DNA of 64,000 nucleotides from Thermanaeromonas toyohensis ToBE (lineage in GTDB: Bacteria; Bacillota; DSM-521; Neomoorellales; Neomoorellaceae). This document shows, piece by piece, positions 1,454 to 26,741 of the stretch. The stretch lies in the NCBI RefSeq assembly GCF_900176005.1, contig NZ_LT838272.1, forward strand, positions 2,437,587-2,501,586, in the 5' to 3' direction. The translations under genes and the position numbers were made by a program. Under the pieces are notes generated by a model, which ran no database searches, was not told the origin of the DNA, and saw nothing but the letters and a program-made list of their open reading frames with translations. Every line of letters starts with the position of its first letter. Position 1 is the stretch's first letter.

Positions 1454-2518
1454 TTAAAATTTGAAGCGCAGGTTCTGTTTAAAATAGACACCGTTAATAG
1501 AATACTCTCCTTCCTCCAGGGCACTACCTCCTACTGCCTTAAGAAAACGGCCCCATCCTAATCGTTCGACAAAGGCCCCTAACCTTTCTCCCGGGCGTGC
1601 CCCCTTTATCCAGACTTCCAAAATACGGGTTATTTTCTCCTTGATTTCCGTGTAATCAAGGGATTTAATAGGCAAGAAAGGGAAGACCATACCAGCTAAA
1701 GAAGGTGTGGAACCCCCCCGGCCCCCGACCAAGATAGCTGCTCCCCGTTCTCCCTTTAGCTTTATCCCGGTGAGCACTGCCTGCATACATGAGCTGCAGC
1801 GCACACAGCGTTCCAGGTTTATAGTTACTGAAGTTCCTCTAGAAGTAGCTTTAGGCCGGATAGCTTTAGTGGGGCACCAGGAGACAAGTAACCCTATATC
1901 TTCATTAGCTCCTGCCAAAGCCTCATCATCTACCTCAGGAAAGCCCTGATATACCCCGATAATACCGATATCAGCTTCCACTCCTCCCCCACATCCATTG
2001 GGGCAACCGCTTATAGAGATCTTGAGCCAAGCTGGGAGACTAAAATCTTGAAAATACTGCCAAAGATGATCTCCTAAAACTTTAGCCAAACTAGGGGCAT
2101 CCAGAGCTGCATTTTGGCAGTGGACAAAGGAGGTACAACATTTTATCTGGTGAGCCGTTCTTCCTGTCCCACCCACCAGGAATCCAGACTGGTAGATTTC
2201 CTTTAGAAGCATGTCCAGTTTAACAGGATCTACTCCTACCAGCTCAAAGGATTGGCGAGAAGTTCGCCGGCCAACCAAGGCGTATTTACGGATCCAACTG
2301 GCCAACAAGCGTAAAGAAGAAGCGCTCAAAAGCCCATTAGGTGGCAAAAGTACCCTTACACTTAAAAGGATGCTCCCATCCCGCCCTACATGTTTAATAA
2401 CACCAGGTCGAACTATCTTGTGCCAAACCCAGTTGCCCGCCATTTCCTGGAGACAAGAAGGTAATTCGCGGCGAAAATCAGGCATAATCCCCGCTGGCAT
2501 TTCTCCCCATTCAGTCAT
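1454..2518 (-). CDS. second, divergent sulfite reductase beta-like subunit (DsrB2)
   Basis: A 354-residue sirohaem/[4Fe-4S] protein of the DsrB fold with an inserted ferredoxin domain (C215, C238, C241, C244). Its sirohaem-cluster cysteines are C128-X5-C134 and C172-X3-C176. The canonical DsrB at 6635-7693 instead has one cysteine (C129) plus the C166-C167-X3-C171 arrangement. DsrB2 therefore has the classical DsrA/assimilatory spacing and lacks the doubled cysteine. It overlaps the upstream dsrA2 by four bases (ATGA) and the pair forms one unit. It is clearly a DsrAB-family beta subunit; whether the pair reduces sulfite, or does another sulfur/nitrogen reduction, cannot be told from sequence. 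Extra divergent dsrAB copies are, from memory, known in Moorella. Confidence 0.85.
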   Translation of the reverse strand: MTEWGEMPAGIMPDFRRELPSCLQEMAGNWVWHKIVRPGVIKHVGRDGSILLSVRVLLPPNGLLSASSLRLLASWIRKYALVGRRTSRQSFELVGVDPVKLDMLLKEIYQSGFLVGGTGRTAHQIKCCTSFVHCQNAALDAPSLAKVLGDHLWQYFQDFSLPAWLKISISGCPNGCGGGVEADIGIIGVYQGFPEVDDEALAGANEDIGLLVSWCPTKAIRPKATSRGTSVTINLERCVRCSSCMQAVLTGIKLKGERGAAILVGGRGGSTPSLAGMVFPFLPIKSLDYTEIKEKITRILEVWIKGARPGERLGAFVERLGWGRFLKAVGGSALEEGEYSINGVYFKQNLRFKF

Positions 2519-3696
2519 AGGTTGGGGCCCTCCTTTATCCCTTCCAGGACATGTCCGGAAGGGCGGAAAACATTGCGCTTTGGTAATTCTACTACCTGAG
2601 GTTCCACCTTAAGCCCTAGCTCCCGCAAGATCCGGCTAGGGCCTAAGCGGGCTACAAAATCACCTACCCTTTCCTTACGTTTGGCCTGGTCTGCCCAAAG
2701 CTCTAGGAAAGCGCCAAAGAGATCACCTAAGGCAGGATAATCTTCCGGACCCCTGATAGGGAGGAAGGGCACCAGTACATAACCCACCATAGGACCCTGA
2801 GGGCCTCGGTGGCCATATTTACCCCCTACTACCCAGGCCACCCCGCGCTCTCTACCAGGTCGAATGGCTGGACACAAGTTTATGCAGGTCATGCAACGGG
2901 TGCAGGCCTCACCATCTATTTTCAGGTGTAAGGAATCGCCTTCTACCTGGAGGGCCCCCTCCGGGCAGGCGGCCATAAGAGCCTGCCAGTCTCCTCCCTC
3001 TTTTACCCATTCAGTCAGTAAGGATTCATCTATAACGGGTAGATCCCGGTAAACGCCGATAAAGGAATGATCCTTCTGCATCATGGCCCGGATGCAATCG
3101 TTAGGACATCCAGCCACCCCGCTCTTGCACTTCTGGGGAAAGCCTGGATACTGCTGATCCTCTATGAAACGCTGCCCTAGGTAGGTAGCTATTGCCGGGG
3201 CATCCACCAGGGCCATATCGCACCGTACAGGCCCACAACAAGCTGTAATACAGCGCAGGTCATCCCCTGTAGAGCCAACATCGTAACCTAAAGCATTAAG
3301 CTCGCGAACCAAAGGCACTATATTCTCCTGCGTAGTGTAAATTTCCAGAGTCCCACCAGCCGTAAAATGTACTAAGCCCTGACCATAGCGCTCGGCCAAT
3401 TCAGCCAAAGCTTCAAGAGTTTCTGCGCTCATCCACCCACCTGCTGGCCCAAGAATTCGTATAAAAGGAGACTCCTTCAAAATCTCGGGATGGCGGCTAA
3501 CCCTTAAAGAGGCCCCGGCCGGAAGCTCCGGGATAGAAAGGTAACCTCCTGGCCCAAAGGCGGAAACGCCTTCCTTAAGGCCGGTTTCATATATTTCCAG
3601 GGGGTACCGGCTAGAGGACAGTTCTTTTACATGACTGGGATACTGACCTTTTAGTAACTGGGAGCAAAAAAACAATTCTTTCTCCCTTTGCTCCAT
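2515..3696 (-). CDS. second, divergent sulfite reductase alpha-like subunit (DsrA2)
   Basis: A 393-residue DsrA-like protein. Counting from the chosen ATG, the sirohaem-coupled cluster motif is C153-X5-C159 and C197-X3-C201 (AGCPNDC). A ferredoxin insert follows (CPEGAL, then C-X2-C-X2-C-X3-CP). The frame extends to a GTG at 3720, but the ATG at 3696 has a GAAGGAG ribosome binding site seven bases upstream and gives a normal N-terminus. That binding site lies inside a small tandem duplication shared with the end of the preceding DsrC-like gene. It stands with dsrB2 downstream of a one-cysteine DsrC paralogue, so these three may form a specialised module. Its low similarity to the canonical DsrA in the same operon argues against a recent duplication. 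Confidence 0.85.
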   Translation of the reverse strand: MEQREKELFFCSQLLKGQYPSHVKELSSSRYPLEIYETGLKEGVSAFGPGGYLSIPELPAGASLRVSRHPEILKESPFIRILGPAGGWMSAETLEALAELAERYGQGLVHFTAGGTLEIYTTQENIVPLVRELNALGYDVGSTGDDLRCITACCGPVRCDMALVDAPAIATYLGQRFIEDQQYPGFPQKCKSGVAGCPNDCIRAMMQKDHSFIGVYRDLPVIDESLLTEWVKEGGDWQALMAACPEGALQVEGDSLHLKIDGEACTRCMTCINLCPAIRPGRERGVAWVVGGKYGHRGPQGPMVGYVLVPFLPIRGPEDYPALGDLFGAFLELWADQAKRKERVGDFVARLGPSRILRELGLKVEPQVVELPKRNVFRPSGHVLEGIKEGPNL

Positions 3697-3697
3697 T

Positions 3698-3728
3698 TTA
3701 ACACTCCTTCGGGTTAACACTCCTTCGG
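3698..3728 (-). repeat. 16-bp tandem duplication across the dsrC2 stop / dsrA2 ribosome binding site
   Basis: TTAACACTCCTTCGG occurs at 3698-3712 and again at 3714-3728. On the coding strand one copy encodes the last residues and stop of the DsrC-like protein (P-K-E-C-stop); the other repeats those codons as untranslated DNA and supplies the GAAGGAG ribosome binding site of dsrA2. Confidence 0.9.
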
Positions 3729-3968
3729 CATAGGTAACCCTGTTATCTTACTTATCTCTCCAATGGGGTTGCCCGGGAATAGCTTATAAATTTTCTTTTT
3801 CTCCCACCCGCTAAGCTTCATAAGGGTACGCAGGGTACAAATGGTCTTATGCTTCTGGTAATAAGCGTAACTTAGCTCTAGAAGATACCAATGTTCCTCC
3901 CCCAGGTGGATACCCCGCTCCCTGGCCCGAGCAGCGATGGTTTCCCTTTCGGTTGGAGAAAGCCCCAT
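3714..3968 (-). CDS. DsrC/TusE-like protein lacking the second redox cysteine
   Basis: An 84-residue DsrC-superfamily protein. The conserved C-terminal arm is recognisable (G-L-P-x-P), but the residue equivalent to DsrC Cys93 is Ser73 and only the terminal Cys84 remains; no residue follows that cysteine, where DsrC normally has one. It also lacks about 20 N-terminal residues of DsrC. Known DsrC-like proteins with only the distal cysteine (TusE, RspA types) transfer sulfur or regulate rather than form a DsrC trisulfide. The ATG at 3968 is chosen because AGGGGGG lies just upstream; the frame extends to 3998. It sits between canonical dsrC and the second dsrAB pair, which suggests it serves that pair. 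Confidence 0.8.
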   Translation of the reverse strand: MGLSPTERETIAARARERGIHLGEEHWYLLELSYAYYQKHKTICTLRTLMKLSGWEKKKIYKLFPGNPIGEISKITGLPMPKEC

Positions 3969-4012
3969 AACCATCCCCCCTGGGTTTAATTTTAACATAA
4001 GAACAAATAATT

Positions 4013-4042
4013 GAGGCTAGCTGAATAAAGCCAGCTAGCCTC
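4013..4042 (-). promoter_or_regulatory. 11-bp intercistronic hairpin after dsrC
   Basis: The arms 4013-4023 and 4032-4042 (GAGGCTAGCTG and its complement) pair perfectly around an 8-base loop, just after the dsrC stop. No long T-run follows on the minus strand, so it looks more like an mRNA end-stabilising or partial attenuation structure than a full terminator. Confidence 0.7.
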
Positions 4043-4055
4043 CCTGCTTTTAATT

Positions 4056-4373
4056 TTATACACACCCTGTTGGCTTAGGTAAACCGGCGATCTTGCACGC
4101 CCCCTTGGCCGGGCCACTAGGGAAAAGATCATAAATCTGTTTAAGGCTAAAGCCCGTCTCCTTACACAGCTTGCGAATCATGGGAGCAATACCAAACTGC
4201 TGGTAATACTGACGGAGGTAATTAATGACCTTCCAATGGTCCTCCGTAAGCTCTGTTACTCCCTCTGTCTCCGCCAGGGCTTTAGCTACCTCCTCGTTCC
4301 ACTTCTCTGGGTCCTGGATGAACCCATCTTCATCCACTTCAATTTCAATCCCGGCCAGAACCATTTTCGGCAT
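4056..4373 (-). CDS. dsrC: DsrC, sulfur carrier for dissimilatory sulfite reduction
   Basis: A 105-residue canonical DsrC. It carries sulfite-derived sulfur from DsrAB as a trisulfide between its two C-terminal cysteines and delivers it to the membrane DsrMK(JOP) complex. Both cysteines are present at the textbook positions 93 and 104, within G-A-C-K-I-A-G-L-P-K-P-T-G-C-V. The ATG at 4373 is preceded by a full AGGAGG site. It lies downstream of dsrK and is followed by a hairpin and a second DsrC-like gene. The contrast between the two paralogues is clear: this one is the respiratory carrier. Confidence 0.95.
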   Translation of the reverse strand: MPKMVLAGIEIEVDEDGFIQDPEKWNEEVAKALAETEGVTELTEDHWKVINYLRQYYQQFGIAPMIRKLCKETGFSLKQIYDLFPSGPAKGACKIAGLPKPTGCV

Positions 4374-4475: not shown

Positions 4476-5848
4476 CGTACAAGGGCGTTGGCGACTAACT
4501 CGCTTATTCCCGCGAAACGAACGGGAAGCTTATAGTAATTAATAAGGTCGCGGAATTGGCCCTTGCAGTTGGAACAGGCTAAAGCTACAATACTAGCCCC
4601 TGTAGCCTTAAGCTGTTCAGCTTTAATTTTACCATAAGTCTCCATACGGAATTTAAGAAAATTCCCCTTGGTCATTATGGCGAACCCGCTTCCACCCCCA
4701 CAGCAGTAGCTCATCTCCCGGTTAGGCTCCATCTCTCGGAAATCTTTACAGCAGGCTTTGAGGATCCGGCGCGGCTCTTCGTAAAGCCCACCTAATCTTC
4801 CTACTTTACAGGAATCATGGTAAGTCACCGGTTCAGGATTCTTCTCTGGGTCCACCTTTATCCTACCTTCCCGAATCCACTCGTCTATAAGTTCCAAAAT
4901 GCTTTTTACCTCAAAAGGCCTCTCAGAGGGAGGGATCAGTCTTAGTATGAGGAATTTAAAAGCCTCAAAGGCGTGGCCGCATTCACCCACCACCAGGGTT
5001 TTTACCCCTAGATCGAGGATAGTCTTAATTTGCGCCTTCAGTACCTTGGCGAACTCTTCATCGCTAAAAAATACCCCATAATTTACCACATCATTAATAC
5101 CTGTATCCGGGGAATTCAGAGTCCAATCCACCCCTGCAGCATGGAAGATCTCCGCCGCCCCCATGACTGTTTCGGCGAAGGCCAGGTAATCCCCGGCATT
5201 ATGCATAACCAGGTACTCGGCGCCCTTTTTATCTACAGGTATCTTTATTTTATATCCCCGCTGGTCCTCAATCTCCTCCTCTAGAAACTCGATTATATCC
5301 AGGAAAGCGGCTGTAGGAGTCCCTGTAGCGTTGCCCATCTCTAGCTGTTTGCGGGTACCTTTTTCTTTCAACTCATCTGGTGCAATCCCTATAGCATCAA
5401 AAATTTTCCTGGCCTCCCGTACAATAAGGCCGTTATCGATAGCTAAAGGGCAAGCATAAGCGCAACGGCGGCAGACTGTACAGCGGTATATGCTCTCCGC
5501 CAAAGCATCCAACTTATCTTCCGTCAGTTCCTCCGCCCCCACCAAGCCAGGGAAAAGTCTGCCCACCCAGGTGAAATAGCGGCGGTACACTCTACGAATT
5601 AAATCAGAACGCACAGCAGGGTGATATATTTCTTGGCGGCCGCTCGCTATATATACTGGGCATACCTCGGCGCAAGTACCGCATTTCATACATACCTCTA
5701 ACGAAAGTATATATGGCAGCCAGAAAGTCCAATTATCGCGCCGATCTAGGGACTTTTTCATCGCGGCCAGGAACTGGGGGACGCGGACTTCCTGTGCCCT
5801 TAAAATCTCATCGGAGAGGGCACGGAAATCATCTAGAACCTTTCTCAA
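4472..5848 (-). CDS. dsrK: DsrK, HdrD-like iron-sulfur subunit of DsrMK
   Basis: A 458-residue cytoplasmic iron-sulfur protein related to heterodisulfide reductase HdrD, the proposed site of DsrC-trisulfide reduction. There are two N-terminal [4Fe-4S] ferredoxin motifs (C-x2-C-x2-C-x3-CP, twice) and C-terminal CCG domains with the S-Y-C-C-G-G-G and A-C-S-N-C motifs that hold the catalytic cluster. It overlaps dsrM by four bases (ATGA), so the two are translationally coupled. With its dsrM it forms a minimal two-subunit complex beside dsrAB and dsrC; the larger DsrKJOPM is encoded at 50847-55964. Confidence 0.92.
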   Translation of the reverse strand: MRKVLDDFRALSDEILRAQEVRVPQFLAAMKKSLDRRDNWTFWLPYILSLEVCMKCGTCAEVCPVYIASGRQEIYHPAVRSDLIRRVYRRYFTWVGRLFPGLVGAEELTEDKLDALAESIYRCTVCRRCAYACPLAIDNGLIVREARKIFDAIGIAPDELKEKGTRKQLEMGNATGTPTAAFLDIIEFLEEEIEDQRGYKIKIPVDKKGAEYLVMHNAGDYLAFAETVMGAAEIFHAAGVDWTLNSPDTGINDVVNYGVFFSDEEFAKVLKAQIKTILDLGVKTLVVGECGHAFEAFKFLILRLIPPSERPFEVKSILELIDEWIREGRIKVDPEKNPEPVTYHDSCKVGRLGGLYEEPRRILKACCKDFREMEPNREMSYCCGGGSGFAIMTKGNFLKFRMETYGKIKAEQLKATGASIVALACSNCKGQFRDLINYYKLPVRFAGISELVANALVR

Positions 5849-6634: not shown

Positions 6635-7693
6635 TTACCACCGGAACTGGGTAGTAGTTCTAAAGGTAGGTACGCTGAAGATAAAATCATCAATATGCTT
6701 ATCGGTGAAGGGAATATCCGCTAATTTAAAGAAAGTTTCCCAGCCTATCCTCTCGATCCACTCACCCATCCTCTCGCCTTTACGGGCATGGGTGGCCCAA
6801 ACCTCCACTAGTTTCTTAACTGCCTGTACCACTTCCGGCCAGCGCGGCGGATTATTGGGAAGGTAGGGGATGGCTAGGCGAGAGAACATAGGTGCCGTCC
6901 TGGCGTTGGAAACCTTACCACCCACCCAGATGGAAACACCATCATTCTCGGGATCCATAATCTGCATAGCCGGAGACATGGTGAAGCAGTTTCCGCAGTA
7001 CATACACCTTTCTTCATTGACTTCTACACTCTTGAGTTTCGGATTGGGCCGGATAGCACCTGTGGGGCAACTAGCCACCACAGTAGGTATTTCGCTCACC
7101 TTAGCCAAGAGCTCGTGATCAACTCGCGGGGGAGTCCGGTGGACACCTAAGATAGCGATATCCGAGCAATGGACGGCCCCGCACATGTTAAGACAACAGG
7201 CCAGGGAAATACGCAATTTAGCAGGAAGCTTTTCCTCCACAAAATACTCGTACAGCTCATCCATTACTGCCTTGACGATCCCCGAGGCATCGGTGGCCGG
7301 GGTATGACAATGGATCCAACCTTGAGTATGCACCATGTTGCTGAGGCAATTGCCGGTTCCCCCTACTGGCCATCCTTTAGCCCTCACTTCTTGGATGAGC
7401 GGCTCAATATTTTCTTTATTCGTGACCAGAAACTCGATGTTGTGCCGGCTGGTAAACCGGACATACCCATCGCAATATTTGTCGGCCAGGTCGCATACTT
7501 CGCGGATAAAATCGGTGCTCACCAGCCGCGGGGAACCTACTCGTATACTATATATTTCCTCCCCGCTTTCTGCCACATGTTTGAGTACCCCCGGCCGGAG
7601 TATTTCATGGTACTTCCAACGTCCATAATTTCTTTTAATTACAGGGGGAAGCATTTCCATATAATGGGGAGGGCCAAAATCGGTCCTAGGCAT
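6635..7693 (-). CDS. dsrB: DsrB, dissimilatory sulfite reductase beta subunit
   Basis: The 352-residue beta subunit of the DsrAB alpha2beta2 enzyme, which carries the catalytic sirohaem. Signature residues are [10 protein letters not shown] (C129) and L-A-C-C-L-N-M-C-G (C166, C167, C171), the known DsrB cluster ligands. A ferredoxin insert follows (CPTGAI, then C-x2-C-x2-C). It overlaps the dsrA stop by eight bases. No dsrD follows it in the next gap, where reductive-type operons usually have one. Confidence 0.97.
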
Positions 7694-8879
7694 TCCTTTT
7701 CACCTCCTCAGGCCACCAGAACACGTAAGGGTTGGCCCGCGGACGAAATACCATCTGCGGTGCCGGTGGTAGGCCTACTGCCTTAAGGAAGGTCCGCATC
7801 CCGACGCGGTAAATCAGCTCACCTATTCTTTCTCGGTTTTTACCGTTTTCGTCCCACCAGTCAAAGATTTTCCTAAGGAGATCCTTAAGTTCTGTATAAG
7901 GCGGCTTAAGCTCCATGAAGGGTACAATAACCCACCCTAAGAAAGCCGACTTAAGGATAGTAGCTTTTCCGCCTACTAGCAGGGTAGCACCCCTTTGCGC
8001 GCCCGGTCGCAGGGCCTTAGGCATCTTATTGATGCAGTGCATACAGCGGACACAGTCTTCTACCTTAAGCTTGAGTTCTTTGCGCTCGCTGTCCCAGGCC
8101 AGGGCCCGTGTGGGACACTTATCCACCACTTCTTCCTGGATGTCTAACCCACCCTGGGCATATTCCGCTATAGCGGCCTGATCTATCTGGATCGAGCCCT
8201 TCCAGGTACCTACAATGGCAAAATCTGCCCTGGCTATGGAAGCCACGCAGTCATTGGGACAACCCGCCACTTTTATCTTAAATTTATAAGGCCATTGCGG
8301 GCGGTGGAGGAAATCCTGGAATTCTAGCGTTAAGCTATGGCATACATCCAAAGTATCTATGCAGGAGAACTCGCACCGGGCCGGTCCTACACAGGCGCTG
8401 GGAGTACGGAGCCCGCCACCAGAGCCACCTAGATCGAAGCCAGCATCGCTCAAATCATCAAAACAGGGTTGGAGATTCTCTGTGGTAGTACCTAGCAGGA
8501 TAATATCTCCTGTGGAGCCATGGAAATTAGTCAAGCCACTACCATATTTATCCCAGATGTCACATAGCTCCCGCAGAGCCTTAGTGGTATAAAACCACCC
8601 GCTAGGTTGGTTAACACGCATGGTATGGAATTCCTTTACGTGGGGGAACTCCTCAGGTTTATCGGAATAACGGCCGATAACCCCGCCGCCGTAGCCCCTA
8701 ACCCCCACGATCCCGCCATGTTTCCAGTGACCAACTTTCTCAGCATAAGATAAATCTAGCTGGCGTAAAAGATCCCCTGCCGCCGGATGCTTCTCCGCTG
8801 CCCGCTTTATTTCCTTCACAAAGCTAGGCCACGGGCCCTTTTCCAGCTCATCCACACGCGGGGTTTGAGAATCAGCCAC
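7686..8879 (-). CDS. dsrA: DsrA, dissimilatory sulfite reductase alpha subunit
   Basis: The 397-residue alpha subunit. Sirohaem-cluster cysteines are C163-X5-C169 and C207-X3-C211 (AGCPNDC), with a ferredoxin insert (CPTRAL, then C-V-R-C-M-H-C). The motif [16 protein letters not shown] is typical of DsrA. The ATG at 8879 is preceded by a GGAGG-type site. With DsrB it reduces sulfite; absence of dsrEFH and association with dsrMK/dsrN suggest the reductive direction. Confidence 0.97.
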
Positions 8880-9588: not shown

Positions 9589-11052
9589 TCATGCCACCTT
9601 TGGCGGGGTTATCCCATGGAAGAATAGCCAGGAAATAATAAGACCTATCCAGATAATAAAGCCAAACAAGCATATAAGATACACCAGAGCCAGCCGGCCC
9701 ATACCTTCTTCTTTAAGTTTCTTAAAGTTGGACATTAAACCGATGGTAAAGAAGGTAAGGGCAAAGAAAATTCCCCGGAAGGTATCCGCTTGTCCCACTC
9801 CAGCATTGAGTAGCTTCAGGGTATCTTTACTTGCGCCAGAGCCGATGAGCAACACCAGGATGAAAAGGGCTGCATAACCAAGTACAAATTTGGGGAAACG
9901 CACCCAAATCTCCGAGGCAGAAACCTTTTCGCCTTCACGCCTCTCAATCTTCCAGGCCCAGATGATGGCTAGAAGGAAAGCCCAGATGGCGATAAAGATA
10001 TCGATGAATACCTTTACAGTAGTGGTAGCCATGAGCATCCAGCCCTCTTGCCACTTGGTCCCTAGGACTGTGGCTGCTTTAGCCCGGATCAAAGCGTCTA
10101 CCATAGCTCCACTAGCAGCCGCCGCACCATCAGTCTTAACCGCCAGACCCATCCAGGCACCCGCCACCATGGGTTCTTTATAAAGCCAAGCCTGGGCCAC
10201 GAAGGGAAGTATCAACAGCTCTACCACTGCGAAGATAATGACCAGCGAGGATACAATAACAGGCACCACCGGCCGGGCTTTGATGGCCGCCCCGGTAGCG
10301 ATGGCCGCAGAAACACCGCAGATGGAAATACCAGAGGCGAGGGGTGCGGCCCATTCCGGAGTGAACTTGAAATATTTGCGGGCGATGAAGTACACAAGGG
10401 GCCAGTAAATGAGATAAGCTTCGATAATGGCGCATAAACCGCGGAATACTACCTGCGCCGCTAGGCTCGTAGACTGGAGAGCATACAGGCCAACCCTAGC
10501 CCCCAAGATAACAATGGCTGTCTTCACAAACCATTCGGGCTTGGTGGCCTCTTGGAGGTACCGTGCAAAGCTAGGCCAGAAATTGCCTATTAGCAACCCT
10601 ACGATAAGGGCTACAATAAATCCAGACTCCCCAGTTAACCTTAAGGACCAAGGAATTTTCAACTTAGCTACCTGATCAGGGGTAGCAGCAATATAAGCAT
10701 TGTTACCGATCATCCAACAAGCATAAGTAATCCAAAAGATAATAGTAAATCCCGTGATGAAACGGCCGACCTTGCCGCCCATGGCGGCCACACCTATGCT
10801 CAATATCACCGTAATAAATACATAGGTCAAGATGAGGGATACGAACCCTGGTAACCCTTTATAAACATCAGAAACCGGCGACAAAGCTTTAGATATATCG
10901 ACCCACATATTAGTTTTTACTACCCAGCCGATGACATCTAAGCCCGCCACTTTAAGTAAGCCCAGAAGAAAGATAAAACCACCTATCCATACTGCCCACC
11001 AGTCCTCGGTTTTAAGTAAGGGTGACCTGGCTCCCTTTACTTCCTGAGACAT
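9589..11052 (-). CDS. YeiH-family (PF03601) putative sulfur-anion transporter
   Basis: A 487-residue integral membrane protein with about eleven to twelve hydrophobic helices. The central G-I-S-I-C-G-V-S-A-A-I-A-T-G segment and the A-V-K-T-D-G-A-A-A-A-S-G stretch are typical of the YeiH/Cons_hypoth698 family, usually annotated as putative sulfate exporter without firm biochemistry. It is longer than the common ~340-residue members because of an added N-terminal membrane region. Placed next to the dsr operon, it may move sulfite, sulfate or another sulfur oxyanion; this is inference. It has its own leader region and is followed by a 46-residue membrane peptide. Confidence 0.75.
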   Translation of the reverse strand: MSQEVKGARSPLLKTEDWWAVWIGGFIFLLGLLKVAGLDVIGWVVKTNMWVDISKALSPVSDVYKGLPGFVSLILTYVFITVILSIGVAAMGGKVGRFITGFTIIFWITYACWMIGNNAYIAATPDQVAKLKIPWSLRLTGESGFIVALIVGLLIGNFWPSFARYLQEATKPEWFVKTAIVILGARVGLYALQSTSLAAQVVFRGLCAIIEAYLIYWPLVYFIARKYFKFTPEWAAPLASGISICGVSAAIATGAAIKARPVVPVIVSSLVIIFAVVELLILPFVAQAWLYKEPMVAGAWMGLAVKTDGAAAASGAMVDALIRAKAATVLGTKWQEGWMLMATTTVKVFIDIFIAIWAFLLAIIWAWKIERREGEKVSASEIWVRFPKFVLGYAALFILVLLIGSGASKDTLKLLNAGVGQADTFRGIFFALTFFTIGLMSNFKKLKEEGMGRLALVYLICLFGFIIWIGLIISWLFFHGITPPKVA

Positions 11053-15066: not shown

Positions 15067-15462
15067 TTATAGAATCTTCAAGGGCTCCTCTCTAACGTCA
15101 CCATCTACAATCCAAAAAGCGCGTAGTACAGGTTGTAATGGATCTCGAAGGGAAAGGATAAAGTAGAGGGCTTCGGGGTAAAAAGCGAGACGTACATCAG
15201 TAGGAGATGGGTAGGCTTCGGTAACAGGGTGGGAATGAAATATTCCCCTTACTTCCCAACCCTTACTTTCCACTTCCCGGAATATGCGGAGAAGTTCTTG
15301 GGGTTCTATAGTATACCGGATGGGGCTATGTTCAGCATTTGTCGCCGGATAAAAGGCTAAAATCTCTTCCCCTGTGCCGGCCAGTATACCGCAGGCCTCA
15401 TTAGGTAGGTTATTCTGGGCATGGGCGATCATTTCTTCTACTAATTTCCACCGCAGTTTCAT
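15067..15462 (-). CDS. JAMM/M67-family metalloprotease (Mec-like)
   Basis: A 131-residue JAB domain protein. The zinc/catalytic motif is intact: E in N-E-A-C-G-I-L, then H-S-H-P-x7-S-P-T-D. Bacterial members such as Mec+ remove C-terminal residues from ubiquitin-like sulfur carriers (ThiS/MoaD/CysO types) or release cysteine from them. It stands 21 bp after tusA and behind a sulfite reductase, so it probably acts in sulfur transfer to biosynthesis. No ThiS-like carrier or E1-like enzyme is encoded nearby, so its partner lies elsewhere. Confidence 0.88.
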   Translation of the reverse strand: MKLRWKLVEEMIAHAQNNLPNEACGILAGTGEEILAFYPATNAEHSPIRYTIEPQELLRIFREVESKGWEVRGIFHSHPVTEAYPSPTDVRLAFYPEALYFILSLRDPLQPVLRAFWIVDGDVREEPLKIL

Positions 15463-15483
15463 GTTCTGTACCTCTCCTGGGTT

Positions 15484-15723
15484 TCACTCACCCACCTTTT
15501 CTATAAGCAGCCGGAAAGCCCCACCCAGGTTCTCCACCGCTAAAACGCGATGACCTTCATCCTTTACACTGCGAGGAATGTTGCGAACCGGATCTCCGGG
15601 ATCCAGTAAAACTTCCAGCACCTGCCCGGCCTCCAAATCTTCTAAGGCCAGTTTAGTACGTACAAAATTCATAGGACAGGGGGTTCCCCGCAGGTCTAAA
15701 GAAACACTCGGTGTAGGAAGCAT
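15484..15723 (-). CDS. TusA-family sulfur carrier
   Basis: A 79-residue SirA/TusA protein (L-D-L-R-G-T-P-C-P-M-N-F-V). The persulfide cysteine is present, but the usual C-P-x-P motif reads C-P-M-N, a variant of paralogues that work with sulfur reductases rather than tRNA thiolation. The C-terminal strand pattern is normal. It is the second gene of the 15067-16705 unit and could accept sulfide or sulfane sulfur from the sulfite reductase product for use with the JAMM protease. Confidence 0.88.
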   Translation of the reverse strand: MLPTPSVSLDLRGTPCPMNFVRTKLALEDLEAGQVLEVLLDPGDPVRNIPRSVKDEGHRVLAVENLGGAFRLLIEKVGE

Positions 15724-15757
15724 CTCTTCTCACCTGCCTAAAATAAAATTTCCAATT

Positions 15758-16705
15758 TTAATCTTCATAAGCAGGGAAGGTAGCTGCTACCCCGCGGTAA
15801 AAGACACTCTGCCACCTTGGTTGTCTTAAGTCAACTTGGGAAAGCAGATATTGTCCAATGACTGGTTTAAGGGCGCGGCGTAAAATATTGATCCCCACCC
15901 GGTCTATAGTATCGCCTACCCTCTCTCCAGGCTGACCATGCTCCCGGTACCAATGGATTACCGTTTCGATCACCAGGAATATTAATTCATCAGGAACGAG
16001 GGAGGCTATAGGATAGGCCACGTGGGGGTGTCGGCCGTGCTTTCCACCCACATACACAGCATGACCACACCTACCAACTGTAAGGGCATCCGTAGGGCAG
16101 CTATGGAGACAGTCGCCACAACCTAAGCAACGGCGAGGATCCCGCCAGGGCAGATTATCCTTTAGATAAAGGGCTCCCTCCTGGCACACCTCTACACATA
16201 ACCCGCAGCCATTGCATTTGTCGGGGTTCAGGACCGGCTCTACTTCTCCTTGAAAACCTAGATCGTTTTCCCGGGACCGCATACAATCAGTTGGACAGCC
16301 AGAGAAGGAAATTTTAAACTTATGCGGGAGATCCCAGCCGAAGTAACGCTCGTTTACTTCTTGGGCCAGCCTTTGGGTATCCACCAGGCCATTAGGGTTA
16401 TATTCGCATCCACCACAGGCAGTGGGTACCCGCACCCGTTTTCCACAAGAAGCTAACCTTTGTCCCACAGCCGCCAGTTCCCGAGTAACAGCTTCTACAT
16501 CTTCTAGTTTCACATACAAAATCTCAGGCGACATGCGCACAGAAAAATGCACTACACCTTGGCCATATTTATCGGCCACATCAGCTATGGCCCGCAGCCT
16601 TTGGGAAGTAAGGCGTCCGCCAGGAGCCATACACCGGACGGTCACCATCTTCTTTTGCCGCTGGGGGATAAGCCCGCCGGCCTTGAGTTCTTCAGGAGAT
16701 AGCAT
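15758..16705 (-). CDS. small single-subunit sulfite/nitrite reductase-like protein with two ferredoxin clusters
   Basis: A 315-residue sirohaem reductase-like protein of the Dsr-like (COG2221) group, with one sirohaem domain half and an insert holding two [4Fe-4S] clusters (C164/167/170/174 and C193/196/199/203). The second cysteine pair of the sirohaem cluster is normal (S-G-C137-P-T-D-C141). The first reads T-A-C97-G-G-C100-E-Y-N, C-x2-C in place of the classical C-x5-C. The gene leads a tusA/JAMM operon with its own promoter and operator, so an assimilatory or sulfur-delivery role is likelier than respiration. Nitrite reduction is an alternative. Confidence 0.82.
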   Translation of the reverse strand: MLSPEELKAGGLIPQRQKKMVTVRCMAPGGRLTSQRLRAIADVADKYGQGVVHFSVRMSPEILYVKLEDVEAVTRELAAVGQRLASCGKRVRVPTACGGCEYNPNGLVDTQRLAQEVNERYFGWDLPHKFKISFSGCPTDCMRSRENDLGFQGEVEPVLNPDKCNGCGLCVEVCQEGALYLKDNLPWRDPRRCLGCGDCLHSCPTDALTVGRCGHAVYVGGKHGRHPHVAYPIASLVPDELIFLVIETVIHWYREHGQPGERVGDTIDRVGINILRRALKPVIGQYLLSQVDLRQPRWQSVFYRGVAATFPAYED

Positions 16706-16765
16706 TGAACTTTCCCCCTAGAGCCCCCTAAATATAGGTTAGGGCGAATGGAGTATGTTTAAATT

Positions 16766-16787
16766 AAGTAATTTAATTGATTTACTT
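16766..16787 (-). promoter_or_regulatory. 22-bp palindromic operator downstream of the sulfite reductase promoter
   Basis: The arms AAGTAA and TTACTT enclose an AT-rich centre; 9 of 11 base pairs across the dyad are symmetrical. It begins six bases after the -10 box and so covers the probable transcription start, where a repressor would block initiation. The cognate regulator is not identifiable in the window. Confidence 0.65.
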
Positions 16788-16793
16788 GGATTT

Positions 16794-16822
16794 ATATTAG
16801 GATATTGGACGAGACTTGTCAA
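16794..16822 (-). promoter_or_regulatory. sigma-A promoter of the sulfite reductase-tusA-JAMM operon
   Basis: TTGACA (16822-16817), a 17-base spacer and TAATAT (16799-16794) on the minus strand. A perfect -35 and ideal spacing; the start codon lies about 90 bases downstream. Confidence 0.85.
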
Positions 16823-23591: not shown

Positions 23592-26500
23592 TTAATATTT
23601 CTCTATCTCCACCCAGGCATCTAACTGGGCAGCGCCGGTGCCAATAAGATCGGAAAGTCCTCCTATTTTTAAGGCTGGGTCAGAAGGCAGTAAGTTATTG
23701 GCGGAGAAACCAGAATTCCGGGGGCCCGCTAGCCCCGCCTCTTCATGTTGAGGTTCCCCTAAAATTATAGCCCGGTCGCTATAATGGCTGGGAGGCAGGG
23801 GCTGGCGCTGGCCATCAATTTCAATAGGAGTGGCCCCATAAGAATAAGTCCCATAGTTATAGGACGTGCCCACTACTCCTGGGCGTATGCCGGAGGTTAC
23901 CAGGACCCGGCCGACGGCTTCAAAGTACCTTGATTTTATACGTACCCTATCGCCCGTCTTTAACCCTCGCGGGAGAGCATCCGCGGGATTTATCCAAATA
24001 TAGTTTTCCCGCTGGATTTCTCTGAGCCAGGCGTCGGCTATATTCCGGTGGGTTCCGATATGGCGCGCCTTCCAGCTGATGAAAAATAGCGGCAGTACCT
24101 TTTTCATTTCCTCTCCATTGTAACTTCTTACGGGTTCTAACCTTGGCAGGCCATCAAAGAAACGGCCAGAATAAGAATCCCGCCCCGCAGCGACACCCTC
24201 ATCATAAAAGTTAGCCTGGCCGGCAAAGCGGTATTTTAAGTGCTCCCCTATATACTCTTTTCCGGGCCTTTCGAACCGCCCACCCCGGTTTAGGACATAC
24301 ACTACTTTCCGCCACTCCTCAGGCTTTACGGCTTTCTCCCAGAGTTCGGGTTTAAAGAAGGGGCCTAGAGCTTTGCGTCGGGTCTGGTAGAATATTTCCA
24401 TTTCCTCTTGGCTGGCATCCGGCACCGGCTCCTCATCGTAGGCGATATTAGCCACCATTTTAAGATAAAAGTCCTCGCTCCGGTCTAGAGAACTGCCATC
24501 CGGAAAAGCGCCTGGTCCTACCCCGGGAAGGTTCATCTTCTTTAAGATCTCGATAAATACATCTTCTATAGAGCGGGCCTCAGGTACGACCCGGGTTACC
24601 GGCTGCGTCACGTGCGAGACTTTGACTTTCATATTGGGATAAATAGCTTCGCGTTGCCAACGCTCCAGGTAACTTAAATCCGGTAAGACAAAATCAGCGT
24701 AAAGGGCAGTTTCCCCCATGACTACATCAGAGACCACCAGGAGCGGTATAGCTTTCTCGTCCTTTAAAATCTCAGCCTGGAGCCACCCCTGGGGCATGGA
24801 AAGGGGAATGGACATAGAGTAGATAAACAGGGCCTTAAGGGGGTAAGGGTAACCTTCTTTAGCGCTGGGCAACACCTCATAGGAGAGGTTTACCCCGAAG
24901 GGATACCAGGGCCTTCGGGCAGGGTAGCCATCCCGTTTAAAAAGAGAACTCTTTTCATAAAAAGCTCCTCCCCGTACTAAAGATACGCCCCAGGGCTTAA
25001 GGCCTTTAGGCACCTTTAACAGATCATAACGCGGCCCGGTAAAATCTCGGTATTTAGCTCCGGTAGTAATACTTCCTCCCTTCCAATCATGGTTACCGAT
25101 CAGATGATTTAAAGTATTAATAGCCCGCATGGTGTAATACCCGTTGGTATGCATGGCAGGCCCCCGGTAGACCATCATGGCCGCGCGCTTCCCATGGGAA
25201 GTCCACTCCCTGGCAAGATTAACAATATCCTGCACAGATAGGCCACAAATCTTAGCGTATTCCTCTAAGGTCTTCTCCATCACCCTTTCACGGTAGAGGG
25301 TAAATACCGATTTAACTTTTATGCCCTGGATCTCCATATCCACTTCCAGCGTGCCCTCGCGTGCTTCAGTATGGGGAACGGGTTTCCCCTTCTCGATAAC
25401 CACAAACTGCTCTCCACCGATACCCAAGTCCTTAGCTCTCAGTTTGGGCCGACGAGGGTCGCTTAAATTTACCAGGTGGGTGGCATCGGTCCAGGTAGGT
25501 TCGTTATCTTCCTGAGCCGCCTTTGGATTAGGATTTAGCAGGTACCTTTCATCATAACGTTTATTTTCTATAATCCAGCGAGCCATACCCAAAGCTAGAG
25601 CCGCATCAGTCCCGGGTTTAATCGGCAGCCAAAGGTGAGCTTTCTCTGCTGTCTTGCTGTAGCGCGGGTCTACCACGGCTAGCTTCATGCCTCGGGCCAG
25701 AGCATTGGTAAGAGCGGGGGCAAGCCAAGTGGGCCCTTTGTTGGCTACCGCGGGGTTGGTCCCCCAGATGATTACAAATTCGGCATGATCGAGGTCGGGA
25801 TACAAGCGATCTTTACGTGTAGTCCCGCCTGAAAAAGAGCGAAAATTGCCAATGACGCTGGAGGCGCCGCAGATACCGCCGTGATCTATAAAACTAAGGC
25901 TCCCCAGGCCCTGCTGCCATACCCGGGTGCGCATAAAGTCGCGCCGGTCCCCGCCCAGGCACACGATCTGGTTGGCTTTAGGCCCTAAGTCTGGGTGCCG
26001 GGTATCGATTAATACCTCACGATATTTTTGGTCGAATTCTTCTTGAGGCATCTCACCTTTCTTAACTTTCTCCCAGTCGCTCATTACTTGTTCCTGGGGG
26101 GCATAGCCCCAAAGTTCTTTTAAGCCGGGGGTGCCCAGATCAGGGCTGCCGAACACGATCTCGTTAATAGCTTCTTCCCAAGAAATGGTTTTAAAACGCC
26201 CGCTTCCCCGGGGTCCCACCCTTTTAAGAGGTTTCTGTAGCCGGAAGCGGTCGTAGACCGTCTGAATCCCCGCCTGGCCTTTAAGGCAGGTGCGGCCGCC
26301 CCGAAAGCTCCTCCCTTCCCGACCCAGCTCATCCTTCCCTTGGGCTGCCTGGGCAGGAGAAGTCTCATAAGGCAGGGGGCCGAAAGGTATAGTATTAAGG
26401 GGGCTATAGGGGTTACCAGCTATCTTGCGGACTATAGAAGGTACAGGAAAATCCCCGGGTGCTTTGGCCAAAAGGACCTTGATGCTGCAGAAAGTATTGC

Positions 26501-26741
26501 ACTGGTGGCACATGGTGTAGAGTACATCTGTGGCAGTATACTCCTCTAACTCCTGGTATAGCCCGTGGTCTTGGATAGAGGACCATGACCCTTCCTGAGA
26601 GATACGGTAAAGATCTTCCACTAAAGGTGCAGCTAGGGCCAGCCCGCCGGCGAGACAGGCACCCTTAAGGAAAGAACGACGGGAAATTAAACCCTTTTGC
26701 CCTTCCATATCCCCCAAATTCACCTCTTTTTTGTGCTTCAA
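23592..26741 (-). CDS. TtrA-like molybdopterin oxidoreductase, catalytic subunit
   Basis: A 1049-residue complex iron-sulfur molybdoenzyme catalytic subunit, exported by Tat (R-R-S-F-L-K-G, residues 21-27). The N-terminal cluster is C78-x2-C81-x3-C85 with C152. The bis-MGD domains include V-V-D-P-R-Y-S-K-T-A-E-K-A and a candidate Mo ligand cysteine in G-G-I-C-G-A-S-S. Size and the NrfD-type partner point to tetrathionate reductase; thiosulfate, polysulfide or arsenate as substrate cannot be excluded. It overlaps the NrfD gene by four bases. The start at 26741 is TTG; an ATG at 26708 also keeps the Tat signal. Confidence 0.8.
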   Translation of the reverse strand: MKHKKEVNLGDMEGQKGLISRRSFLKGACLAGGLALAAPLVEDLYRISQEGSWSSIQDHGLYQELEEYTATDVLYTMCHQCNTFCSIKVLLAKAPGDFPVPSIVRKIAGNPYSPLNTIPFGPLPYETSPAQAAQGKDELGREGRSFRGGRTCLKGQAGIQTVYDRFRLQKPLKRVGPRGSGRFKTISWEEAINEIVFGSPDLGTPGLKELWGYAPQEQVMSDWEKVKKGEMPQEEFDQKYREVLIDTRHPDLGPKANQIVCLGGDRRDFMRTRVWQQGLGSLSFIDHGGICGASSVIGNFRSFSGGTTRKDRLYPDLDHAEFVIIWGTNPAVANKGPTWLAPALTNALARGMKLAVVDPRYSKTAEKAHLWLPIKPGTDAALALGMARWIIENKRYDERYLLNPNPKAAQEDNEPTWTDATHLVNLSDPRRPKLRAKDLGIGGEQFVVIEKGKPVPHTEAREGTLEVDMEIQGIKVKSVFTLYRERVMEKTLEEYAKICGLSVQDIVNLAREWTSHGKRAAMMVYRGPAMHTNGYYTMRAINTLNHLIGNHDWKGGSITTGAKYRDFTGPRYDLLKVPKGLKPWGVSLVRGGAFYEKSSLFKRDGYPARRPWYPFGVNLSYEVLPSAKEGYPYPLKALFIYSMSIPLSMPQGWLQAEILKDEKAIPLLVVSDVVMGETALYADFVLPDLSYLERWQREAIYPNMKVKVSHVTQPVTRVVPEARSIEDVFIEILKKMNLPGVGPGAFPDGSSLDRSEDFYLKMVANIAYDEEPVPDASQEEMEIFYQTRRKALGPFFKPELWEKAVKPEEWRKVVYVLNRGGRFERPGKEYIGEHLKYRFAGQANFYDEGVAAGRDSYSGRFFDGLPRLEPVRSYNGEEMKKVLPLFFISWKARHIGTHRNIADAWLREIQRENYIWINPADALPRGLKTGDRVRIKSRYFEAVGRVLVTSGIRPGVVGTSYNYGTYSYGATPIEIDGQRQPLPPSHYSDRAIILGEPQHEEAGLAGPRNSGFSANNLLPSDPALKIGGLSDLIGTGAAQLDAWVEIEKY

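Follow-up and report, generated by a model that had tools for sequence, protein, structure and literature searches.

The worked-out relative of the operon described here is reportedly the protein-thiocarboxylate pathway of Wolinella, whose parts are a sulfite reductase, TusA, a JAMM peptidase, a carrier and an E1. The operon of a sister genome departs from that pathway in having CysK rather than MetY, and the copy considered here has neither carrier nor E1. A sulfur-assimilation neighbourhood, class 4e, was described by Iyer, Burroughs and Aravind (2006; PMC1779556) in the part of their article that bears on this gene set. Like it, the present operon keeps genes for sulfite reductase, SirA/TusA and JAB together, and a genome of the same genus also has the ThiS and rhodanese-free E1, as a fusion. 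Unlike it, the present operon contains no ThiS/MoaD-like carrier or rhodanese-free E1, and, in place of the O-acetylhomoserine sulfhydrylase or other sulfur-assimilation enzyme linked in that class, it has no cysK or metY; cysK is found in the same-genus genome and in a second one from the same order. The F420-dependent sulfite reductase (Fsr) is the best match to the reductase in both fold and sequence, sharing the four sulfite-binding Arg/Lys residues, an equivalent of R388 and two inserted 4Fe-4S motifs, but the present enzyme lacks the F420 domain and has CX2C in place of CX5C. Thermus TtuABC with its JAMM is matched by the carrier, E1, TtuA-like protein and single JAMM of the present genome, except that here the JAMM lies in the sulfite-reductase operon, 375 kb off. 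I propose that the operon is the remnant of a known bacterial sulfite-to-cysteine operon with a ubiquitin-like sulfur carrier, its functional steps all predicted ones, and that the new element in it is a clade of sulfite reductases with the motif CX2CXnCX3C.

The window is a stretch of 64,000 nucleotides from the one-contig, 3,334,024-base genome of Thermanaeromonas toyohensis (G000). Matches to Pfam profiles bear out the three-gene set of the initial annotation, all on the minus strand: a siroheme sulfite reductase (SiR) of 315 aa and CX2CXnCX3C type (15758..16705; NIR_SIR 105 bits, NIR_SIR_ferr 65 bits, and Fer4; two 4Fe-4S motifs), a TusA-like sulfur-transfer protein of 79 aa with a CPMN motif (15484..15723; PF01206, 81.1 bits, cut-off 28.6), and a JAMM (Prok-JAB) metallopeptidase of 131 aa (15067..15462; PF14464, 78.9 bits, cut-off 25). 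TusA falls below the cut-off of the TusA equivalog NF001423 (22.2 bits against 78). The JAMM is the only PF14464 match in a search of its own genome, and its metal motif is complete (E22, H76-S-H78-P, S86, D89). An assignment as haloarchaeal desampylase (NF041370) was rejected at 80.3 bits against a cut-off of 130.

The AF2 model of SiR (pLDDT 92.3) best matches the fold of the F420-dependent sulfite reductase 7npa (E 1.5e-27, TM 0.80, 32% identity). In the account of the enzyme MjFsr given in PMC10229431, sulfite is bound by R355, R423, K460 and K462, and R388 is named there as a trait of assimilatory enzymes; alignments with 7np8 place these at R24, R92, K129 and K131 of SiR and at R57. None of the five varies over 38 rows, and in the four sulfite-binding residues and the R388 equivalent SiR resembles the assimilatory, Fsr-like type. 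It is predicted to reduce sulfite. AsrC (TIGR02912) was tried as an identity and rejected, at 122.5 bits against a cut-off of 324. The closest relatives of SiR within its own genome are four matches of 26-34% identity, all in the dsrAB region of the window, where two dsrAB pairs (1454-3720 and 6635-8879) differ in the layout of their cysteines; the second DsrB has CCX3C without the usual first pair. Moorella also has two dsrAB copies, according to the relevant passage of PMC10504309.

It is at the siroheme-linked cluster that SiR departs from its relatives. The canonical motif, as PMC10229431 gives it where it treats the cluster, is CX5CXnCX3C, with CXnCCX3C in DsrB. SiR has instead C97-x2-C100, N103 and C137-x3-C141, the codons for C97, C100 and N103 lying at 16417-16415, 16408-16406 and 16399-16397 of the minus strand, so that the unusual C-x2-C first pair remarked upon earlier is real. 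Across 110 SiR sequences, C97, C137 and C141 are invariant, while position 103 is occupied by Cys in 79 sequences and by Asn in 31. Cys stands at position 100 in every one of the 31 sequences with Asn103 and in 6 of the 79 with Cys103; none of the 110 lacks Cys at both positions. The Asn103 sequences form one clade (SH-aLRT 99; 30 rows after a duplicate was dropped), also when the motif columns are masked, and by label it spans 10 phyla, mostly as metagenome assemblies. The simplest reading is that in this clade the fourth cluster ligand has been relocated from position 103 to position 100. Asn103 could instead leave a cluster site with three cysteines, or some other residue could serve as the fourth ligand, for which C87, a Cys in 105 of the 110 sequences, offers itself. 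The spacing of the motif is in any case not rigid, since four sequences of the Thermoanaerobacterium type (L035, L036, L037, L086) have CX4C, a motif shorter by one residue. In those parts of the literature that deal with the motif, including the pertinent passages of PMC10229431, PMC3448663, PMC6286981 and PMC10504309, I found no CX2C sulfite reductase, and the statement is meant for those passages only.

How common is the company that SiR keeps? A protein search finds relatives at E <= 1e-40 in 58 of the 398 genomes of the phylum. For neighbourhoods I took the best 80 loci from at least 594 stretches (at least 586 of them confirmed) in named genomes, counting a gene as a neighbour if it lay on the same strand as SiR and within 6 kb; because only the best 80 of at least 586 were kept, the counts are biased towards near relatives. 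In this best 80, the neighbours are TusA (64), JAMM (41), ThiF (39), ThiS (36) and CysK/MetY (36), with all five present at 23 loci and JAMM without ThiF at 7. The 41 of these best 80 that are flanked on either side by 4 kb or more give TusA 35, JAMM 25, ThiF 24, ThiS 23 and CysK/MetY 21, with all five at 17 and TusA together with JAMM at 25. The initial annotation had allowed that no other genomes might share the three-gene set; in fact TusA and JAMM stand together beside SiR at 40 of the best 80 of at least 586 loci. The partners are also found fused: SiR to TusA (L078, L129), CysK to TusA (L069, L073, L080), JAMM to SiR (L056, L058) and, at one locus (L030), ThiS to ThiF. Even so, the module is loosely held within the clade, as the JAMM query finds no match in the genome from another family of the same order (G285), and in G019 SiR is present with its partners absent from the SiR locus. 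A pathway taking sulfur from sulfite to a carrier, as first suggested for the window, is thus supported by the neighbourhoods and fusions of relatives, but that the window genome runs the whole of it is not supported, the dedicated carrier, E1 and CysK having been deleted.

Some neighbours were noticed by eye. In L130, a thioredoxin-like gene (8079-8396) separates TusA from ThiS, and a thioredoxin-reductase-like gene (9871-10785) follows JAMM, the two together suggesting a relay of electrons or sulfur. The window has a YeiH-like transporter (Cons_hypoth698; 9589-11052), and a similar-looking gene adjoins SiR in L054 (1-1280); it may be the pathway's transporter for sulfite or sulfate.

Upstream of the operon, a promoter of the form TTGACA-N17-TAATAT (16794..16822, minus strand; -35 at 16822-16817, -10 at 16799-16794, 10 of 12 matches) is present as first described. 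Such a match is not evidence by itself, since the scan finds 4 promoter-like sites over 2.9 kb where shuffled sequence gives 2.5, but the block alignable with the same-genus genome (G162, an assembly of 140 contigs) starts at the -35 box. The 22-bp palindrome of the initial annotation (16766..16787) is likewise there, as AAGTAA-N10-TTACTT, imperfect, with 9 of 11 pairs matching. When the 130-nt upstream region is shuffled with its dinucleotides preserved, 81 of 2,000 versions hold a palindrome as good, so that the element would be weak alone; what argues for it is the conservation of the site. Its inner 20 bp are identical in G162, where the outer A/T pair is C/C, and its core AGTAA-N10-TTACT recurs in G285, as AGTAAGTAGACCAACTTACT, in the corresponding position just downstream of TTGACT-N17-TATAAT. 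The core turns up in 16 of 20,000 shuffles of the G285 region, a recurrence noticed before the test was made.

The initial annotation had seen here dedicated repression and had looked to a regulon sharing the palindrome. With as many as 3 mismatches allowed, the 20-mer has one site each in the window genome and G162 and no further copies in either. The core has 3 sites in the window genome (1 for the reversed control), two inside ORFs and one intergenic, hence no regulon, and with 0-1 mismatches it has no copy near SiR in most other loci. A fair reading is that the palindrome is a candidate operator with a single target, probably acting on this operon alone; the operator-like site is conserved, but to say that it shows dedicated repression was too strong. 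As to regulators, the ThiS-ThiF-JAMM-SiR-TusA cluster of L077 is preceded by an Rrf2-like gene (3743-4192), a candidate regulator type, and has two copies of the core, each with one mismatch, before thiS (5360-5399). The window genome has two Rrf2 matches above the Pfam cut-off, one of them beside an iscS-like gene.

Where, then, is the ThiS-like partner? At the syntenic site of G162, between the same flanking genes, the order is SiR-TusA-[ThiS-ThiF fusion, 378 aa]-CysK (312 aa)-JAMM. The window and G162 are 92% identical by blastn from the -35 box to shortly beyond the TusA stop, where the alignment ends at CCCA. A second block, at 89%, restarts 2,176 bp later in G162, with 21 bp of cysK still to come. 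The junction, placed by blastn of the window against L139 and by the gene order of L139, lies at 15478..15481 on the minus strand, with CCCA common to both edges. Missing from the window between TusA and JAMM are thus about 2,176 bp, which in G162 hold the ThiS-E1 fusion and the greater part of cysK; and since the leader of the window JAMM matches the last 21 bp of that cysK, the leader is a cysK remnant. The gene order of G285, SiR-TusA-ThiS-CysK, makes loss in the window lineage the better polarity. On the evidence of the aligned DNA, then, a single deletion removed both the ThiS-E1 fusion and cysK from the window genome. Searches of the window genome with both found no equivalent of the fusion and no dedicated cysK elsewhere. 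The fusion has a sole E1-family match, 56% identical, at 2,079,350-2,080,123, and there are still two cysteine synthases, with 66% and 62% identity to the lost CysK, both of which have counterparts in G162. The search for the partner proposed at the outset therefore ended in a deletion, with the partner kept in G162 as a ThiS-E1 fusion.

The relatives suggest how the intact operon would have worked. SiR would reduce sulfite, TusA would take or relay the sulfur, E1 (ThiF) would adenylate the C-terminal glycine of the ThiS-like carrier so that this could take up the sulfur in thiocarboxylate form, CysK or MetY would pass the sulfur to an activated amino acid, and JAMM would release the newly made cysteine or homocysteine from the carrier. 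I consider it likely that the window locus is a shortened assimilatory module of this kind, one that has lost ThiS-E1 and cysK. In it SiR and TusA most likely still supply cysteine, feeding the two remaining CysK paralogues through free sulfide or TusA-bound sulfur, while JAMM would either be on its way out or act in trans, its substrate then being the TtuB-like carrier at 2.079 Mb. A bolder idea, which I hold to be rather improbable, is that the cross-phylum clade of SiR ligates its catalytic 4Fe-4S cluster through CX2CXnCX3C, as a third pattern beside CX5CXnCX3C (assimilatory enzymes and Fsr) and CXnCCX3C (DsrB), and hands the reduced sulfur atom to TusA instead of only releasing it as free sulfide; the thiocarboxylate carrier could then be done without, as has happened here. 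A 2026 paper (PMC13188885) reports that four assimilatory sulfite reductases directly form zero-valent sulfur, a product that would suit TusA as acceptor. Elsewhere in the window (23592-26741) is a tetrathionate/thiosulfate-reductase-like molybdoenzyme, its best NCBIfam match, TtrA, below cut-off; it is a possible internal source of sulfite.

If JAMM has found other work, the obvious place is the Ttu-like set at about 2.078-2.080 Mb, which comprises a ThiS-like protein of 65 aa, an E1 of 267 aa and a TtuA-like protein of 302 aa. JAMM would there serve a TtuB/TtuC/TtuA-like tRNA-thiolation set by freeing the carrier from proteins, with SiR and TusA giving the sulfur. The set holds the only E1-family match to the fusion in the genome, JAMM is the only Prok-JAB, and deletion of the Thermus JAMM, as summarized in the section of Shigi's review devoted to it (PMC3980101), makes TtuB conjugates aberrant and lowers thiouridine by about 50%. 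The TtuA-like protein matches NF049949 (tRNA m5U54 2-sulfurtransferase) at 306.5 bits, but this is below the cut-off of 450, and 375 kb separate the set from the JAMM operon. G162, moreover, has a Ttu-like set as well as the dedicated operon; before the deletion, then, JAMM had not been dedicated to Ttu. I regard this role as possible but doubtful. The eight ThiS-family matches of the window genome, sorted by eye from translations, are otherwise one in a thiamine operon and six (L021, L022, L023, L024, L025, L027) ThiS/MoaD-like genes beside aldehyde-ferredoxin-oxidoreductase-like genes.

Alternatively the whole operon may be decaying, SiR and TusA being kept for sulfite detoxification or dispensable beside the two dsrAB sets, and JAMM a passenger. 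Carrier, E1 and cysK are gone already, two dsrAB pairs lie in the window, and the changes that can be polarised between window and sister number 5:1 in JAMM (2 unclear), against 6:8 in SiR (2 unclear) and 2:3 in TusA; JAMM may be under relaxed constraint, on counts that are very small. But all three frames are intact, dN/dS against G162, which covers the time before the deletion as well as after it, is 0.14 for SiR, 0.27 for TusA and 0.26 for JAMM (0.02 for the neighbouring EamA), and the promoter and the palindrome core are conserved. General decay seems to me unlikely. That the three-gene form is ancestral and G162 gained ThiS-E1 and cysK by insertion, an idea to which five loci with SiR, CysK, JAMM and TusA but without a nearby ThiF (L062, L065, L066, L067, L072) lend something, is scarcely credible, given that G285 has ThiS and CysK ordered as in G162 and that the window JAMM leader matches the 3' end of cysK.

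The shortened assimilatory module is ordinary in kind and informative in detail, combining a documented deletion that took the carrier out of a carrier pathway with a clade of SiR whose ligand, judging by the alignments, has apparently shifted. The siroheme-cluster motif has served in two papers, in the passages concerned with it, for checking or screening DsrA sequences. The SiR clade, found in 10 phyla and including anammox planctomycetes and Methanoperedens, departs from that screening motif at the first cysteine pair. The question raised at the start, where the ThiS-like partner is, has its answer: it is gone by deletion here and survives in a close relative. The window genome and G162 are thus a natural before/after pair for the requirement for the carrier.
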